From IMG/VR virus record IMGVR_UViG_3300028844_001300, positions 1-25,389 of that record: a stretch of DNA of 25,389 nt; one strand, given 5' to 3'. Of the stretch, positions 17,091 to 22,909 are shown piece after piece. The stretch is from a virus. A program made the translations under genes and the position numbers. A model generated the notes under the pieces. It searched no databases, was not told where the DNA came from, and saw only the letters and a program-made list of their open reading frames with translations. Within the stretch, counting starts at the first letter, position 1, and every line of letters begins with the position of its first letter.

Positions 17091-18359
17091 TTAATCTATT
17101 AATGCACCAATAAATCCTTTGGTATTTTTTTCAATATTACCAAGAATATCATTTGTTTTTCCTGAAGCTTCGGTTGAAGCTTTTTCATATGCACTCATCG
17201 CTGATTTAGTAGCTTCCATTTTACCACCAGTTTCTCGTGCTCTTACTAACCTAGCAAGTGTTTCTACGTCTGTTCCAACAGCTTTTGCAAGCACTTGTCT
17301 TTCCACTCTCAACATCTTACTAAACTCAGCTTCTCCTCCAACTTGTTTTAATATTTCTTTCATCATTCCTTCAGTATCGTCTAGGTATGATAATTGTCTT
17401 GCTCTATCTAAATTAAGCTGTCGTCCTAATAAAACAGAAGCCTCCATTTGAGCTTCAATTGAAGATTCAAAATCTAATAAATTATCTGCTATTTGAGTTA
17501 CTGATGATAAATTTAATCCTAATTTACGAGCACCAACTGCTGCTGCCATAACATTTTTACCACCATCTTTCATAGTTGATGCAAAAAACTCAGAATTTTC
17601 TGCTATATCTCTAAATATAGCACCTGGTGCAACACCAGCTAATCTTATTGTTGCTGCTTCCGCTTCTAATTGTGATAATAATGTTTCTCTAGAAGCATCT
17701 GATACAGATTCTTGTAATGACAAAACTTTTGCAATTTGATCGGAAGTTGCTCCGATAGATAACTGTGCTGAAGCTAAGTTCATTATAAATCCATTTGAAG
17801 CTTCATCTATACCACCAAAATTAGTTCTAATTGCCTCAAATGAACCTCGTATATCTTCTGATGACAACCCTAATCCTTTTGCAGCAATACCTAAACCAAA
17901 AAATCGTGCTTCTAGTTTTCCAGCTTCAAAAGTTGATAAACCTAATTCTTTTCTAGTTTCAGCTACCGCTTTTTGTAATTTTAAAAATCCAACAACTAAT
18001 GCAGTAACTATACCAGCAATAGCCAATAAAGGATTTGCTGCTAGTATTAAGTTTATTGCAGATGAGATACTTTTGAATTTTTTTAAGAATCCAAGTTGAC
18101 TCATTATAGAACCAGCTATTTCTTTGTTGGCTCTTATGGTCTTCAAAGCAGTCTTAGCCTGGTCATTCGTTATATCTCTTTTTAATGATTCTTTTGCGAC
18201 TAACTTGTCGTTGATGACGGTTGCGTCTTTGGTTATACCTAACAGTTTAGAAGCCAAAAAACCCTGTTCTTCTAAAAACTGTTTTTGTTCTTGTAATTCT
18301 TGTTTTAGAGCTGAGGCGATATCTTTCCGTGTCTTTAAATCATTTAAACTTTCTGCCAT
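17091..18359 (-). CDS. Tape-measure-like protein, 422 residues
   Basis: Probable tail-length determinant lying inside the tube. The N-terminal 90 residues are a charged coiled coil (LKQELQEQKQFLEEQGFLAS). A hydrophobic stretch near 100-127 (AINLILAANPLLAIAGIVTA, then LVVGFL) is typical of tape-measure proteins. The rest is Ala-rich amphipathic helix (LEAEAATIRLAGVAPGAIFR, DNLLDFESSIEAQMEASVLL). It follows the tail-assembly chaperone-like gene and a 77-residue gene, the usual place of the tape measure. At the usual rule of about 1.5 angstrom per residue, 422 residues would give a tail near 60 nm, shorter than T4 (gp29, 590 residues, about 100 nm). The ATG shares one base with the preceding stop (TAATG). 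I rate the tape-measure role likely but not proven. Confidence 0.65.
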   Translation of the reverse strand: MAESLNDLKTRKDIASALKQELQEQKQFLEEQGFLASKLLGITKDATVINDKLVAKESLKRDITNDQAKTALKTIRANKEIAGSIMSQLGFLKKFKSISSAINLILAANPLLAIAGIVTALVVGFLKLQKAVAETRKELGLSTFEAGKLEARFFGLGIAAKGLGLSSEDIRGSFEAIRTNFGGIDEASNGFIMNLASAQLSIGATSDQIAKVLSLQESVSDASRETLLSQLEAEAATIRLAGVAPGAIFRDIAENSEFFASTMKDGGKNVMAAAVGARKLGLNLSSVTQIADNLLDFESSIEAQMEASVLLGRQLNLDRARQLSYLDDTEGMMKEILKQVGGEAEFSKMLRVERQVLAKAVGTDVETLARLVRARETGGKMEATKSAMSAYEKASTEASGKTNDILGNIEKNTKGFIGALID

Positions 18360-18592
18360 TATAGATTCCTAAGTATGTCGGCACCTCTTTGATCGATATC
18401 AATACCCTTTGATTTTAAATCCCTTTCCAAATCATCTCTCATTTTAAGTAACTCTTTAAAGTTCTTAGCAAATTTAGGATCTTTTTTACTTAGTTTTTTA
18501 ATAGCTCTACTATGACCTTTTGCTGCAGCATTTGCAAATATCTTTTCAATAAATTTATCTATTATACCTTCAGTAATTTTATATTTTGCCAT
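18359..18592 (-). CDS. Small basic helical protein, 77 residues, unknown
   Basis: Unrecognised. A longer frame reaches an ATG at 18628, but I choose the ATG at 18592 because it has GGAG at 18600-18603, seven bases upstream, whereas the upstream ATG has no binding site and lies in a hairpin (18610-18629). From 18592 the protein is MAKYKITEGIIDKFIEKIFA followed by a basic stretch (AAAKGHSRAIKKLSKKDPKF) and a heptad-like helix (LLKMRDDLERDLKSKGIDID). No membrane segment is visible. It lies between the chaperone-like frameshift region and the tape-measure-like gene, overlapping the latter's ATG by one base, so it may take part in tail assembly. Confidence 0.75.
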   Translation of the reverse strand: MAKYKITEGIIDKFIEKIFANAAAKGHSRAIKKLSKKDPKFAKNFKELLKMRDDLERDLKSKGIDIDQRGADILRNL

Positions 18593-18609
18593 GTAAAATC
18601 TCCAATTAA

Positions 18610-18629
18610 ATTGAGTCTTATAACTCAAT
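18610..18629 (-). other. Hairpin upstream of the 77-residue gene
   Basis: Seven perfect pairs (18610-18616 with 18623-18629) and a six-base loop lie seven bases 5' of the ribosome binding site and 14 bases after the chaperone-extension stop. There is no T run after it on the minus strand, so it is not an intrinsic terminator. It could affect translation of the 77-residue gene or mRNA ends. Confidence 0.5.
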
Positions 18630-18642
18630 AATAAATATCTAC

Positions 18643-18849
18643 TTACTTATTTTTGTGTTTATCTATTTCTTTTTTAATTTCAGAAGCTTCTTTTTTATAG
18701 TAAGTTGTCAATCTTTTTAAATAGAATGTACGTAAATATATAGGTAAGTTATACGCTTCGGTAAAAGTAAATCCACCTTTTGAATGTAATATTAATTGAA
18801 ATATCTGTTCGTGTATTTCTCTTTTATATTCCTGATGAAGGCCAAAAAA
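18643..18849 (-). CDS. Frameshift-expressed C-terminal extension of the tail-assembly chaperone (T-like frame)
   Basis: An open frame of 68 codons with no ATG, GTG or TTG near its beginning; upstream it is closed by TAG and TGA, and it can be entered only in the short stretch around the seven-T run at 18844-18850. The peptide (FFGLHQEYKREIHEQIFQLI, then LHSKGGFTFTEAYNLPIYL, ending in a charged helix KKEASEIKKEIDKHKNK) looks like real protein, with an amphipathic 'GGF....AYNLPIYLR.FYL..L' pattern. A +1 shift (or -2) after TTT TTT would join 242 residues of the gp26-like protein to GLHQ, giving about 308 residues. The location between tube and tape measure is that of G/GT-type chaperone pairs. 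An assembly error in the T run would look the same. Confidence 0.7.
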   Translation of the reverse strand, partial: FFGLHQEYKREIHEQIFQLILHSKGGFTFTEAYNLPIYLRTFYLKRLTTYYKKEASEIKKEIDKHKNK

Positions 18850-19570
18850 ATCGGAGGGTGATTGGAATCACCACTACTTTCTCCTTTCCATTCGAATCTA
18901 CAACTTCTGCGTTCATGTCTATATCTGGTGTTATTGATGTTAAATAATTTCTAAAAGCAAGTGAATCTCTAGATAAAAATTCATTATCTACAAAACTAGA
19001 TATAAAAGCTTTATCAGTATTACCATCTACTGATAGTAACATTTTTTTAAGTCTAGTAGTTAATTCAGAACTAGTATCCTTTGATATTTTTTTTAAAGCT
19101 TTTAATTCTGTTTCAATCTGCTGTTCATCTCTACCAGTTAGTAATCTGAAAGTTATTGTTCTTTTTGAATTTGGTAAATCAAAAGAAAATTCATTCTTAC
19201 CTTTAGTAAATTTACTAAAATCCAATTTAGCTGGTTCTAATTTAGATAAATCAACAGTCTGTTCTTCATCACCATACTCAAAATTATAATCTTTACCATA
19301 ACCAAGAATACGAGCCGCTACCATAATAGCATTTTTATCACCAATAAGTAAATCTTGAACATTTATTGTTTTATCTACAATTAATGCTTGTAATAAAACT
19401 TCAATAACAGTTCCTTGTTGTATTAGATTCTGAGAGGTTAGGATGTCCTCTTCTTTTGCGGTCATGTATTTTACTTCTACTTTACCCTTAGATAAAGGAT
19501 GACCATCAACATAGAAGTATCCTCTGGATGGTAAGTCTACCATTTCCGTAGGAAATTTGTAATCAGCCAT
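18824..19570 (-). CDS. gp26-like baseplate / tail-assembly chaperone (G-like)
   Basis: A 248-residue relative of the T4 baseplate hub protein gp26 family (T4_baseplate type). Visible family-like features are LPSRGYFYVDGHPLSKGKVE at 13-32, YMTAKEEDILTSQNLIQQG at 35-53, VLLQALIVDKTINVQDLLIG near 59-78, and AAARILGYGKDY near 85-96 in the pattern '..ARILGYGK.Y'. The ending VVIPITLRFFWPSSGI carries the Phe-rich strand typical of these proteins. T4 gp26 has 208 residues. By place in the gene order (tube, then this, then tape measure) it would be the tail-assembly chaperone that holds the tape measure before tube polymerisation. The run TTTTTTT at codons 241-243 looks like a slippery site leading into a second frame. 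ATG 19570 has AGGAG upstream. Confidence 0.85.
   Translation of the reverse strand: MADYKFPTEMVDLPSRGYFYVDGHPLSKGKVEVKYMTAKEEDILTSQNLIQQGTVIEVLLQALIVDKTINVQDLLIGDKNAIMVAARILGYGKDYNFEYGDEEQTVDLSKLEPAKLDFSKFTKGKNEFSFDLPNSKRTITFRLLTGRDEQQIETELKALKKISKDTSSELTTRLKKMLLSVDGNTDKAFISSFVDNEFLSRDSLAFRNYLTSITPDIDMNAEVVDSNGKEKVVVIPITLRFFWPSSGI
18844..18850 (-). other. Candidate frameshift (slippery) site, seven T
   Basis: Minus strand reads CGA TTT TTT TGG in the zero frame. Skipping one T (or slipping back two) leads into the 68-codon open frame that ends at 18643; a -1 slip gives only about 17 codons before TAA. No Shine-Dalgarno-like element lies at the usual 3-14 base spacing; AGGAG occurs about 27 bases upstream. 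Confidence 0.55.
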
Positions 19571-19626: not shown

Positions 19627-19836
19627 TTATTTTTTACCAAACTTCTCAGCTGCTGTAACACCAAGTCCAACTACTGAAATGTACATAAAACATTCAAGTA
19701 TTTTGTCCTTGACTTCAAATGTAGAAAAGGTATCAGCACCCCAACTACAAATCAACATAAAGAATGCAGCGAAACCGACAAATCTTTTACTAGAGATTTT
19801 AGCATCACTAGAAAGCATTTCTCTTAAAAAACTCAT
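19627..19836 (-). CDS. Small membrane protein, holin-like, 69 residues
   Basis: Predicted inner-membrane protein with two hydrophobic segments: FVGFAAFFMLICSWGADTF at about 19-37 and CFMYISVVGLGVTAAEKF at about 49-66, joined by a short charged loop. The N-terminus (SFLREMLSSDAKISSKR) is charged and cytosolic-looking, and the end is KFGKK. Size and two-helix topology fit a holin or holin-like protein, but many phage genomes carry similar small membrane proteins of unproven role, and no endolysin lies in this window. The ATG has AGGAG upstream and lies nine bases after the tube gene's stop, so it is expressed with the tube. It could instead be a tail-associated membrane component. I cannot choose between these on sequence alone. 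Confidence 0.7.
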   Translation of the reverse strand: MSFLREMLSSDAKISSKRFVGFAAFFMLICSWGADTFSTFEVKDKILECFMYISVVGLGVTAAEKFGKK

Positions 19837-19845
19837 ATTTACTCC

Positions 19846-20331
19846 TTAGAATTGTAAGATTGCGTAATCGTATTTAAGTGTTAGGGTGATTTCAGCAGGA
19901 TCACTAGAAGCATAATCTAGTTCACCAAAGTTAGCTGTTTGAATATAAGCACCTTTTAGTACCCATTCTTCAACAACATCACCAACTGGACCTAACAAAT
20001 TAAATGTAATATCTTTCTTATAAAAATCTGAGTATCCATCACGACCTGTTACTGATTCATGTGATAAACGAACCCATTCCATAACTGCCTGTGCACCTGA
20101 TGGAACAACTGGATCGTATAAAGTGATATCAATAGGTTGCCAAGCACCTTTACCTTTTATATATCTTTTAACATTGATGTGGTCTAAAACTATTTCTTCA
20201 AACTCTATTTGAGGTCTGTTTGCAGTTTTAATTAAATAAGATGGTATACCTTCTACATACATTATAAACCGATTTTTTGTTTTCGGTTCAAACGGTGTGA
20301 ACATAATTTCTGAAGGATCTAATGTAGCCAT
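19846..20331 (-). CDS. Tail tube protein, gp19-like
   Basis: Structural subunit of the inner tail tube, 161 residues (T4 gp19 is 163). The beta-barrel pattern is visible: KNRFIMYVEGIPSYLIKTAN at about 19-38, RPQIEFEEIVLDHINVKRYI, KGAWQPIDITLYDPVVP near 60-77, VGDVVEEWVLKGAYIQTANF near 115-135 and AEITLTLKYDYAIL at the end. Order and length match the tube proteins of contractile tails, and the gene follows the sheath gene directly as in T4. ATG 20331 has AGGAG (in TTTAGGAG) upstream. A terminator at 20406-20435 separates it from the sheath, so it would need its own start or read-through. Confidence 0.92.
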   Translation of the reverse strand: MATLDPSEIMFTPFEPKTKNRFIMYVEGIPSYLIKTANRPQIEFEEIVLDHINVKRYIKGKGAWQPIDITLYDPVVPSGAQAVMEWVRLSHESVTGRDGYSDFYKKDITFNLLGPVGDVVEEWVLKGAYIQTANFGELDYASSDPAEITLTLKYDYAILQF

Positions 20332-20458: not shown

Positions 20459-22909
20459 TTACTCAGGAAACGTAGCTCCAGTTGGTTGTACTACGAAATC
20501 AAGTACAATGAACTCTGCAGTTCTTGTAGGTTGGATAAATATCTGTCCTACCAATTGATTTCTATCTACAACATCTGGTGTGTTATTAGTGTCATCCATG
20601 ACAACCCTAAAAGCACTTAAACCACTATTAGACTGAACTTGTTCTAGATAAGGATTCACAATGTTTAAGAAACGATTCCTTAGAGCTTGAGTATTCTGTT
20701 CAAATACCAAGTATCTTGAAGCACTTGCAATAAATTTCCTTAATGCAATTAGTAATCTACGAACATTGATTCTATCTAGAGCTGATGGTTTAGATTGTAA
20801 TGTTTTCTGTCCGAAAACGACTACACCTTGACCAGGAAAAGAAGCAATTGGATTAACTCTACCTTCATAAAGGTCATCTCTTTCAGCATGAGTCAATCTT
20901 GTTTTAGCTTCCAATACACTTGTCAATCCACCACGATTCAATCCAGCTGGTGCAAACCATTCGTGAGCTACTTGGTCGTTATATGAAATAACACCAGGTA
21001 AAACAACTGAAGGCGGAACCCATACTGGTATTGAACTGTCTCTATTTGGAATCATTACCCAAGGATAATATGTAGCCACATAGTTAGTATCAAGATTCTT
21101 CACAGTATCTAATACTGTTTCAACAGTATCACCATATGCTGCAGCATCCATAATATAAAGTGCATCTGCTCTAGACTCAACCTTAGATATAGCATGGTTT
21201 GTTACGTTAGAATGTAATCTATGAATAACACCAGGTGTTACTAACAAGTTGATATCAAATTCATCTGGATTACTGATAGCGTTTAGAGCTCTTTTGTAAG
21301 CTAAACTACCACTAGATGTAGAACTTGATAAATCAAACCCTTGTGTATTTCCTGCTGTTATTGCAGTTCCAACATTATAAGCTGTTGCTGGATTTCTACC
21401 ATCAAATCCCCATTGTAGAGGAACAACAAATTTTCTTTGAGCCAATGTTGAATTAGTCAAAGTAATTGTTGTTGAACCATCAGCATATGTTGTCTCACCA
21501 TTTGGATTAGCATCATTATCACCATTCATGTCTTCTAAACTCATGGTTATATTGTTACCTACATTAGCTGGATATGGTATTGGAGCTAAATAATTAGCAT
21601 TATCGTCTTTTATATTAGTAGACAGATAATCAAATCCATAGAATGTATTACCATCGTATGTTCCAATAGCACTTGTTTGATTTGATTTGAATATTACTGC
21701 AGGTATTTCAGTTGTACCCGCTGTAGGATTATATACTGCATCATGGCCCATAGGAACAAGTTCTTTTGGATGTGTTGCAAGGTTATTCTCTCCTGCTGTT
21801 TTAGAAGCATAATCACCTACTCTAATAAATTTACTTAAATTAGGCATTGTACCAAAGAAAGTAAGTTTTCCATTAGAATCAATACTAACGTGTCTATCAC
21901 CAATTCTTTTTGCAAAGTAGTTTGGTGATGTTGAATCAAATGTTAAGTTATCAAACTGTTCTATAATATTATCTTCAGTATTATTAGATCGTACTTGTAT
22001 AGTAAAAGTACCAAAATCCGAACCAGCTATATCTGCAGCTGGTTTAACGTCTCTAATAGCAATCTTTATTTCAGAATTTATATTACTTCCATGTGAACGA
22101 GTATATATTCTAAATAGTTTATATCTTGTAGCATTTACTAATTGAGATTGTATCCACGGTGTTCTTGCAGTTTGATATGCTTTGTTTCCAGTCCAATCTG
22201 TTGATTCATTTCCATCATTGTCTACTGTATTAGTACCATCATAAAAGTTTAATCCATTTGAATCTATATCTAATGATGCAGATGAAAATGAATCATATGT
22301 AGTAGAATTTCCTGTGTGAGTCCATACTTTATAAACATATACAGATGAATTTGAATTTCCACTTCTTGTAGATTGTGGATCTTGACTAAGTACTTTTGTA
22401 ATGTAATTTGCACTACTTGAGTTAAATGATAAAGCATATGACTCTGTTGCAGCTCCAACTGGTACGACATTTAATTCAAATGAATCCCAAGATTGTACAG
22501 ATCCACTTATAGGATTATTTAGTGTTATATTACTACCAGCAAAACTGGTACCACCATTACCTCTTGATGGAGCTAATACTGCTAGTGATTGAGTCACACC
22601 ACCGTCTGCATGTACGTTTAATCTTAAATTATCATGTTTATATCCACCTAGTCCAAGAATCCTAACAACTGTTACGACTCCCGCACTCTTTAAATATTGT
22701 TCTACTGTATTAGGTGTATAAAACCTATCATCCATACCACCAAAAACTTGTTCAAAGTCTTGAAACGAAGTTATCTGTGTTGGTACAAAAGCAGGGCCTT
22801 TTTTTGTAGGCCCTACAATAGCTGCACCGATAGCTCCAATAGCTTGTGGTAAAAACGATAAATCACTCTCGCGAGTAAATACACCAGGCGAAACGATTCT
22901 TTCTGCCAT
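20459..22909 (-). CDS. Tail sheath protein, gp18-like
   Basis: Contractile outer tail sheath subunit, 816 residues (T4 gp18 has 659). The N-terminus (MAERIVSPGVFTRESDLSFL) and IGAIGAAIVGPTKKGPAF near 22-39 carry the family pattern, including SPGVYT-like residues. The last 110 residues hold the conserved C-terminal domain: RLLIALRKFIASASRYLVFE, QALRNRFLNIVNPYLEQV, RVVMDDTNNTPDVVDRNQLV, then PTRTAEFIVLDFVV. The middle is enlarged with Ser-, Asn- and Thr-rich stretches (residues about 130-560), so it would have extra surface domains. ATG 22909 follows AGGAG and a good sigma70-like promoter at 22933-22961. Sheath and tube are the most secure calls of the window. Confidence 0.95.
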   Translation of the reverse strand: MAERIVSPGVFTRESDLSFLPQAIGAIGAAIVGPTKKGPAFVPTQITSFQDFEQVFGGMDDRFYTPNTVEQYLKSAGVVTVVRILGLGGYKHDNLRLNVHADGGVTQSLAVLAPSRGNGGTSFAGSNITLNNPISGSVQSWDSFELNVVPVGAATESYALSFNSSSANYITKVLSQDPQSTRSGNSNSSVYVYKVWTHTGNSTTYDSFSSASLDIDSNGLNFYDGTNTVDNDGNESTDWTGNKAYQTARTPWIQSQLVNATRYKLFRIYTRSHGSNINSEIKIAIRDVKPAADIAGSDFGTFTIQVRSNNTEDNIIEQFDNLTFDSTSPNYFAKRIGDRHVSIDSNGKLTFFGTMPNLSKFIRVGDYASKTAGENNLATHPKELVPMGHDAVYNPTAGTTEIPAVIFKSNQTSAIGTYDGNTFYGFDYLSTNIKDDNANYLAPIPYPANVGNNITMSLEDMNGDNDANPNGETTYADGSTTITLTNSTLAQRKFVVPLQWGFDGRNPATAYNVGTAITAGNTQGFDLSSSTSSGSLAYKRALNAISNPDEFDINLLVTPGVIHRLHSNVTNHAISKVESRADALYIMDAAAYGDTVETVLDTVKNLDTNYVATYYPWVMIPNRDSSIPVWVPPSVVLPGVISYNDQVAHEWFAPAGLNRGGLTSVLEAKTRLTHAERDDLYEGRVNPIASFPGQGVVVFGQKTLQSKPSALDRINVRRLLIALRKFIASASRYLVFEQNTQALRNRFLNIVNPYLEQVQSNSGLSAFRVVMDDTNNTPDVVDRNQLVGQIFIQPTRTAEFIVLDFVVQPTGATFPE

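Follow-up and report, generated by a model that had tools for sequence, protein, structure and literature searches.

A probable +1 ribosomal frameshift, with a conserved upstream RNA hairpin, in a gp26-like phage tail chaperone gene

The window, as we call the whole of the DNA analysed here, is a 25,389-base virus record from IMG/VR with its tail genes on the minus strand. One of its loci very probably encodes a G/GT-like pair of tail assembly chaperones of the T4-type gp26/gp51 family, made by +1 ribosomal frameshifting that an RNA hairpin on the 5' side of the slip site would probably stimulate; the long member of the pair is predicted from sequence comparison. An initial annotation had inferred a shift at the site that would extend a gp26-like tail chaperone into a longer version, and this reading gained support from the frame relation in relatives (137 of 138 loci among the matches listed), from dN/dS, from gene order and from fold similarity. 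Missing from it were the upstream hairpin and the relatives in which a −1 arrangement (cyanophages) or two paralogous genes (T4 26/51) occupy the homologous position.

In the zero frame, the gp26-like gene spans positions 18824-19570 (minus strand) and encodes 248 residues, the proposed short chaperone (TAC-N, G-like) by its profile match to phrog_150 and its predicted fold. The gene ends ...CTC CGA TTT TTT TGG CCT TCA TCA GGA ATA TAA, and the T7 run within CGA TTT TTT TGG (18844-18850, minus strand) is the slip site suggested by the sequence and by comparison of sites. A +1-frame extension of 68 codons (18849-18646) plus a TAA (18645-18643), occupying 18643-18849 on the minus strand, would supply a helical, GT-like C-terminal domain. 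Upstream, this frame is closed by TAG and TGA, and in the window no ATG, GTG or TTG stands ahead of its conserved part. Fusing the two frames in silico gives the predicted product P0001 of 308 residues (18643-19570, minus strand), the proposed long chaperone (TAC-NC, GT-like), in which the 66 residues past the shift (GLHQEYK...KHKNK) have no counterpart in the short form.

On re-reading the sequence, the initial description of a gene ending just past CGA TTT TTT TGG, with a start-less second frame of 68 codons, proved exact. The same was true of the statement that a −1 slip would end after about 17 codons, the stop lying 29 nt past the zero-frame stop. A +1 open run as long as the observed one occurred in 0.36% of mononucleotide shuffles of the region.

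The neighbouring genes are a tail sheath gene (20459-22909, by profile match) and, as the upstream neighbour, a tail tube gene (19846-20331; phrog_4542, E = 1.3e-30), together with a probable tape measure gene on the downstream side (17091-18359), all on the minus strand. The last was assigned from a weak match to phrog_12506 (E = 0.021) and from its position, which is that of the annotated tape measure gene in phage immuto. The order in the window is sheath, tube, gp26-like gene, small ORF and probable tape measure, and phage immuto is annotated in the same order. The small ORF between the extension and the tape measure gene (18359-18628, minus strand) encodes 77-89 residues, and in phage Mel-JY01 a small ORF is annotated at a similar place. 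A further ORF of 69 residues (19627-19836, minus strand), between the tube and chaperone genes, has likely membrane segments and may encode a holin or another membrane protein.

The short protein matched phrog_150 ("baseplate hub") over residues 5-243 with an E value of 1.4e-9, and scored 21.3 bits against PF12322, under the cut-off of 24.5. We folded the short protein and the extension as two separate models. The zero-frame model (pLDDT 89, pTM 0.84) was compared with 516 candidate chains from the PDB, and the two entries listed at Z ≥ 2 were YqbN (3klu; 82 residues, 3.5 Å) and the HK97 tail assembly chaperone (2ob9; 97 residues, 4.2 Å), with modest Z values of 5.1 and 4.2, respectively; YqbN belongs to the XkdN-like chaperones. 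Matches in BFVD were T4-like baseplate hub/chaperone proteins. By these comparisons the predicted fold of the short protein bears a modest resemblance to those of known tail assembly chaperones. The extension was modelled as three helices (pLDDT 89), and a fold look-up with the extension alone returned nothing convincing (Z at most 2.7).

At the profile level, the extension matched the extension of cyanophage gp51 (E = 1.1e-5, probability 82%), which in turn matched the C-terminus of T4 gp51 (E = 9.5e-11). When the fused protein was matched to T4 gp51 directly, again at the profile level, the result was not significant (E = 0.21), so that the link to gp51 goes through the cyanophage sequences as an intermediate. 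By these matches, the extension is probably related to the C-terminus of cyanophage gp51 and, through it, to that of T4 gp51. Both T4 proteins match phrog_150, gp51 up to position 280 of 282 and gp26 up to 235; since gp51 reaches the end of the profile and gp26 stops short of it, gp26 looks like the short form and gp51 like the long form. The same pair thus appears, from the sequences compared, as two genes in T4, as a −1 shift in cyanophages and as a +1 shift in the clade of the window.

Relatives of the locus were collected through a search with the zero-frame protein (64) and through alignment to the fused protein (at least 80 more; 589 of 600 candidate stretches were confirmed). Comparison showed the frame relation to be conserved: among the matches listed, 137 of the 138 loci with both parts have their extension in frame +1 as counted from the core, and the extension is kept in all complete relatives. 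Two isolates share the arrangement, namely Microcystis phage Mel-JY01, whose annotation gives each part as a hypothetical protein of its own, and Flavobacterium phage immuto, where the extension figures only as a 111-base ORF. The +1 arrangement also occurs in MAG contigs labelled Winogradskyella, Flavobacteriaceae, Flavobacteriales and Alphaproteobacteria. Four IMG/VR contigs from other samples carry an identical gene with exactly seven T, meaning that a base-calling error in the T run is ruled out; the conservation among relatives agrees with this.

The extension past the overlap is constrained as protein, with a dN/dS of 0.05 over 26 distinct sequences of the window's clade, as against pN/pS values of 2.0 and 1.2 for the same DNA in the other two frames. 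Constraint is weaker in the core, whose last 100 codons gave a dN/dS of 0.31. Judged by these ratios, the extension is under strong purifying selection.

In one lineage, five contigs (L045, L046, L047, L048 and L061) have one in-frame TGA inside the gp26-like core (EFS-TGA-TLPKSK; L048:3324-3326), the slip site and extension being intact. Their neighbouring ORFs suggest no general reassignment of TGA, so the codon may reflect readthrough, a pseudogene or a local recoding event.

Among the matches listed, the first codon at the slip site is TTT in all 137 loci. Elsewhere in these genes 21% of the Phe codons are TTC, and an all-TTT first codon has a probability of about 2e-11. The second codon varies (TTT in 118 loci, CTT in 16, CTA in two and TTA in one) with the shift the same throughout, and the codon after it is TGG in 132 loci, TTC in four and TAC in one. 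The 484-kb uncultured phage LR756508 has the site AAC TTT CTA TTC CCT, and a further clade has TTC TTT TGG, with the slip at the second codon. Every site shares an in-frame UUU, at either codon, with U or C as its next base (UUU-Y), so that a Phe-tRNA would be able to re-pair one base on; in the window the P-site UUU proposed from the site comparison is 18850-18848 and/or 18847-18845 (minus strand). The A-site codon at the slip would be UUU, CUU, UUA, CUA or UGG, none of them obviously slow. For slips at the first codon it is one of the first four, UGG following in 132 of the 137 loci and UUC or UAC in the rest. The initial annotation had looked to homologues for the same relative shift and a conserved T run: the former is there, and an unbroken run is absent from 19 of the 137 sites.

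Directly upstream of the slip site, the window can form a hairpin (18853-18884, minus strand) with the core stem GGTGAT-TCCA-ATCACC (18872-18857) and outer pairs GGAG/CTCC (18884-18881 with 18856-18853), its predicted minimum free energy being −10.2 kcal/mol over 36 nt. We assessed folding of the 27 nt ahead of the slip codon (−27 to −1) at 104 non-redundant loci, using as controls sequences encoding the same peptide with the same codon usage. The mean folding energy was −6.4 kcal/mol vs −2.7 kcal/mol in the synonymous controls (z −18 to −21), and 65 of the 104 loci fell within the lowest 5% of their own controls. Windows more than about 70 nt upstream gave z values near 0 (−3.2 to +1.1), and those nearer the site −3 to −5. 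The stem typically comprises 6-8 pairs with a loop of 4-7; its 3' end most often lies 2-4 nt ahead of the slip codon (at −4, −3 or −5 in 50 of 103 loci), the distribution peaking again at 6 nt (−7). LR756508, for example, has a 7-pair GC-rich hairpin with a 3-nt spacer.

The stem varies in sequence: counting those with 6 pairs or more, 40 different ones occur. Pairing held in 91% of the cells for the commonest register, as against at most 52% when the register was slid, and both sides of the stem had changed in 28 cells vs at most 8 in the slid controls. A covariation score of 0.52, vs 0.21 in shuffles (0 of 500 as high), was obtained on 23 rows chosen mostly for the commonest register, which makes the slid controls the fairer yardstick for change on both sides. 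By these comparisons a hairpin directly upstream of the slip site is conserved and covarying. About a quarter of the loci have a weak hairpin; most of these belong to a Bacteroidota-like clade, for which z was −7.6 and 18 of 47 loci were significant when taken singly. A Shine–Dalgarno-type stimulator was not seen upstream as a common feature; the conserved element is the hairpin with its changing sequence.

Downstream of the slip site, folding looked somewhat stronger than in the synonymous controls (z mostly −3 to −10, about −10 at +67 to +111), with a codon-usage control that comes from the other frame and is uncalibrated there. The minus-strand hairpin was also considered as an intrinsic terminator, but it did not pass a terminator scan, its stem and the T run standing too far apart.

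A hairpin close upstream of a T7 run would also suit transcriptional slippage, in which the nascent hairpin would help RNA polymerase to skip one U of the run, such that some mRNAs encode the long protein; a stem-loop-mediated loss of one base is known from a Roseiflexus IS630 element (PMC5009743). We nevertheless regard this route as unlikely. The run is broken at 19 of the 137 sites (TTTCTTT, TTTTTA, TTTCTA) and another clade has only TTCTTTTGG, yet the shift is retained in all of them, and most broken-run sites keep the hairpin (z −6.7 for the interrupted-run group and −6.0 for the TTC TTT TGG group). The CTT, CTA, TTA and TTC-TTT sites leave no long homopolymer on which simple slippage could occur. 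Moreover, the run varies in its middle and stays fixed in its first codon, which is the opposite of what a homopolymer mechanism needs and fits re-pairing from UUU to UUY, and the usual spacing of 2-4 nt places the stem beside the E-site codon.

More distant relatives reach the extension in other ways. In the cyanophages P-SSM2 and S-PM2 and the pelagiphage HTVC008M (Kyanoviridae), a homologous core is followed at the same point by a homologous extension in the −1 frame, at T TTT TTC in the two cyanophages and T TTT TTT in HTVC008M. All 80 viral-contig relatives of S-PM2 have the −1 arrangement, and no hairpin signal was found among 43 non-redundant cyanophage −1 loci (z about +1). The extension is annotated in the three phages as a separate gp51 (loci L169:1496-2391, L170:972-1864 and L171:1867-2756, the last on the minus strand); HTVC008M has no Met near the junction, and P-SSM2 and S-PM2 have an ATG there. 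From the arrangement of the frames, this "gp51" looks like the −1-frame C-terminus of gp26, not an independent gene. PMC12846349 credits Vladimirov et al. 2022 (Virology 566:9) with a −1 poly-T signal in T4-like chaperone genes.

In the jumbo phages XacN1 and RAS14 the frame at the corresponding place, where the gp26-like gene ends (L071:2956-4001 and L072:2929-3989), is −1, and the sequence makes a −1 frameshift at TTT TTT A likely; a search of viral contigs with the XacN1 protein gave no match. In the Gram-positive phages LIS04 and GXN1 the frame is +1, with a weak hairpin in LIS04 (−4.1) and none in GXN1.

Three loci nested within the +1 clade, L122 (2708-2830), L276 and L280, have lost the slip site (TTC TTC, TTC TTG and TTC CTT), and their extension is a separate ATG-started ORF. 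On the tree these are two separate losses, one in L122 and one in L276 with L280. The hairpin there is weak or missing (0, −4.1 and −3.6 kcal/mol), showing that, at the sequence level, slip motif and hairpin vanish or weaken together.

Such loci might suggest that the extension is generally a separate small protein, made by re-initiation past the zero-frame stop, and in some others an in-frame ATG, GTG or TTG is available (an ATG in 30 of 104). However, the extension frame near the site is devoid of ATG in 74 of the 104 non-redundant loci and of any ATG, GTG or TTG in 50 of them, as it is in the window, and the slip motif and hairpin are kept exactly where a start is missing and are gone or weak where an ATG arose. 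A non-functional relic, the other form this explanation could take, is ruled out by purifying selection. Altogether, we consider it very unlikely that the extension is expressed separately or is a relic.

Least probable of all is a −2 ribosomal shift at the T run with one extra Phe, as in phage Mu, which would reach the same frame and for which the T7 run would permit re-pairing, but which finds no acceptable re-pairing two bases back at the CTT, CTA, TTA and TTC-TTT sites (such as TTT CTT TGG, TTT CTA TGG and TTC TTT TGG) and would be opposed by an upstream hairpin, reported to act against backward movement. The initial annotation had left the shift as "+1 or −2"; its +1 half was upheld by the frame relation in relatives and by the variant sites, and its −2 half fell with the latter.

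We infer that the +1 shift takes place in the ribosome, and would picture it as follows. Most ribosomes would finish the 248-residue short protein. A fraction would move +1 with the Phe tRNA on the P-site UUU, re-pairing to UUU or UUC one base on, and read the +1 frame to give the 308-residue long protein with its helical C-terminal domain. The hairpin would refold behind the ribosome, beside the E site, pushing the balance forward. If lambda gpG/gpGT is a guide, the tape measure protein may be coated by the short form, with tube subunits recruited by the long one.

The lambda gpG/gpGT and other TAC-N/TAC-NC pairs resemble the window in having a gene between tube and tape measure, two products and a shift near the 3' end; the usual shift there is −1, whereas in the window's clade it is +1 and the structure lies upstream of the slip site. 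T4 gp26/gp51 (Straboviridae) belong to the same family (phrog_150) as the short protein, but are two separate paralogous genes with no frameshift, instead of one gene and a shift. P-SSM2, S-PM2 and HTVC008M share the homologous core and extension, and differ by the −1 relation and by having no upstream hairpin signal.

In mechanistic terms, one parallel is prfB (RF2) of E. coli, which combines a +1 P-site slip with a 5' duplex by the E site, as proposed here. In prfB the duplex is formed between a Shine–Dalgarno sequence and rRNA, and a UGA codon contributes; the clade of the window has an mRNA hairpin and sense codons. At the influenza PA-X +1 site, UUU C, the P-site UUU re-pairs to UUY. The same re-pairing is proposed for the window's clade, which differs in having a hairpin. 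For PA-X, no stimulator is evident (PMC5009743).

Upstream structure is also known to favour forward movement. In the bypassing of T4 gene 60, a 5' stem-loop that forms in the wake of the ribosome helps it to slide forward (PMC11194080), much as we propose, although that case involves a 50-nt hop and other signals. In yeast and in a 70S system, a hairpin upstream of the shift site stimulated +1 and attenuated −1 frameshifting (PMC6321510, PMC3639245). These engineered refolding hairpins (Cho 2013; IJMS 2018) sit by the E site like the one described here; they are tested constructs, the first of which (Cho 2013) was derived from a −1-attenuating element of SARS-CoV, whereas the clade of the window offers a natural +1 site with a covarying hairpin.

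We think it likely, if with less assurance than for the chaperone pair itself, that this clade, which includes marine, freshwater, Bacteroidota and huge phages, drives +1 frameshifting by an evolved, covarying hairpin beside the E site, where the pair otherwise arises from −1 slippage (cyanophages) or duplication (T4). The hairpin would set the direction by hindering a move backward and helping one forward.

Pairs of tail chaperones made by frameshifting are already well known, and PMC12846349 attributes a −1 signal in T4-like chaperone genes to Vladimirov et al. 2022. For a +1 shift in the gp26 family, or for a phage +1 site with a conserved 5' hairpin, we found no report in the literature searched, most subscription papers lying outside it. 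Upstream hairpins have been studied in reporter constructs (PMC3639245, PMC6321510), and that work asked for such elements to be sought by bioinformatics. The present loci form a natural set of about 100 with covarying hairpins, for which the −1 relatives and the lost-shift relatives can serve as controls, making the refolding-hairpin model directly testable.

If our reading is true, annotations would also be corrected, given that the long product is missing or split in Mel-JY01 and immuto and that the cyanophage extension is listed as a separate gp51. The chaperone frameshift has been described as conserved among long-tailed phages "except T4" (PMC5009743). The clade of the window would then provide a +1, 5'-hairpin-stimulated version of the best-known conserved phage frameshift, in the very family listed as the exception.
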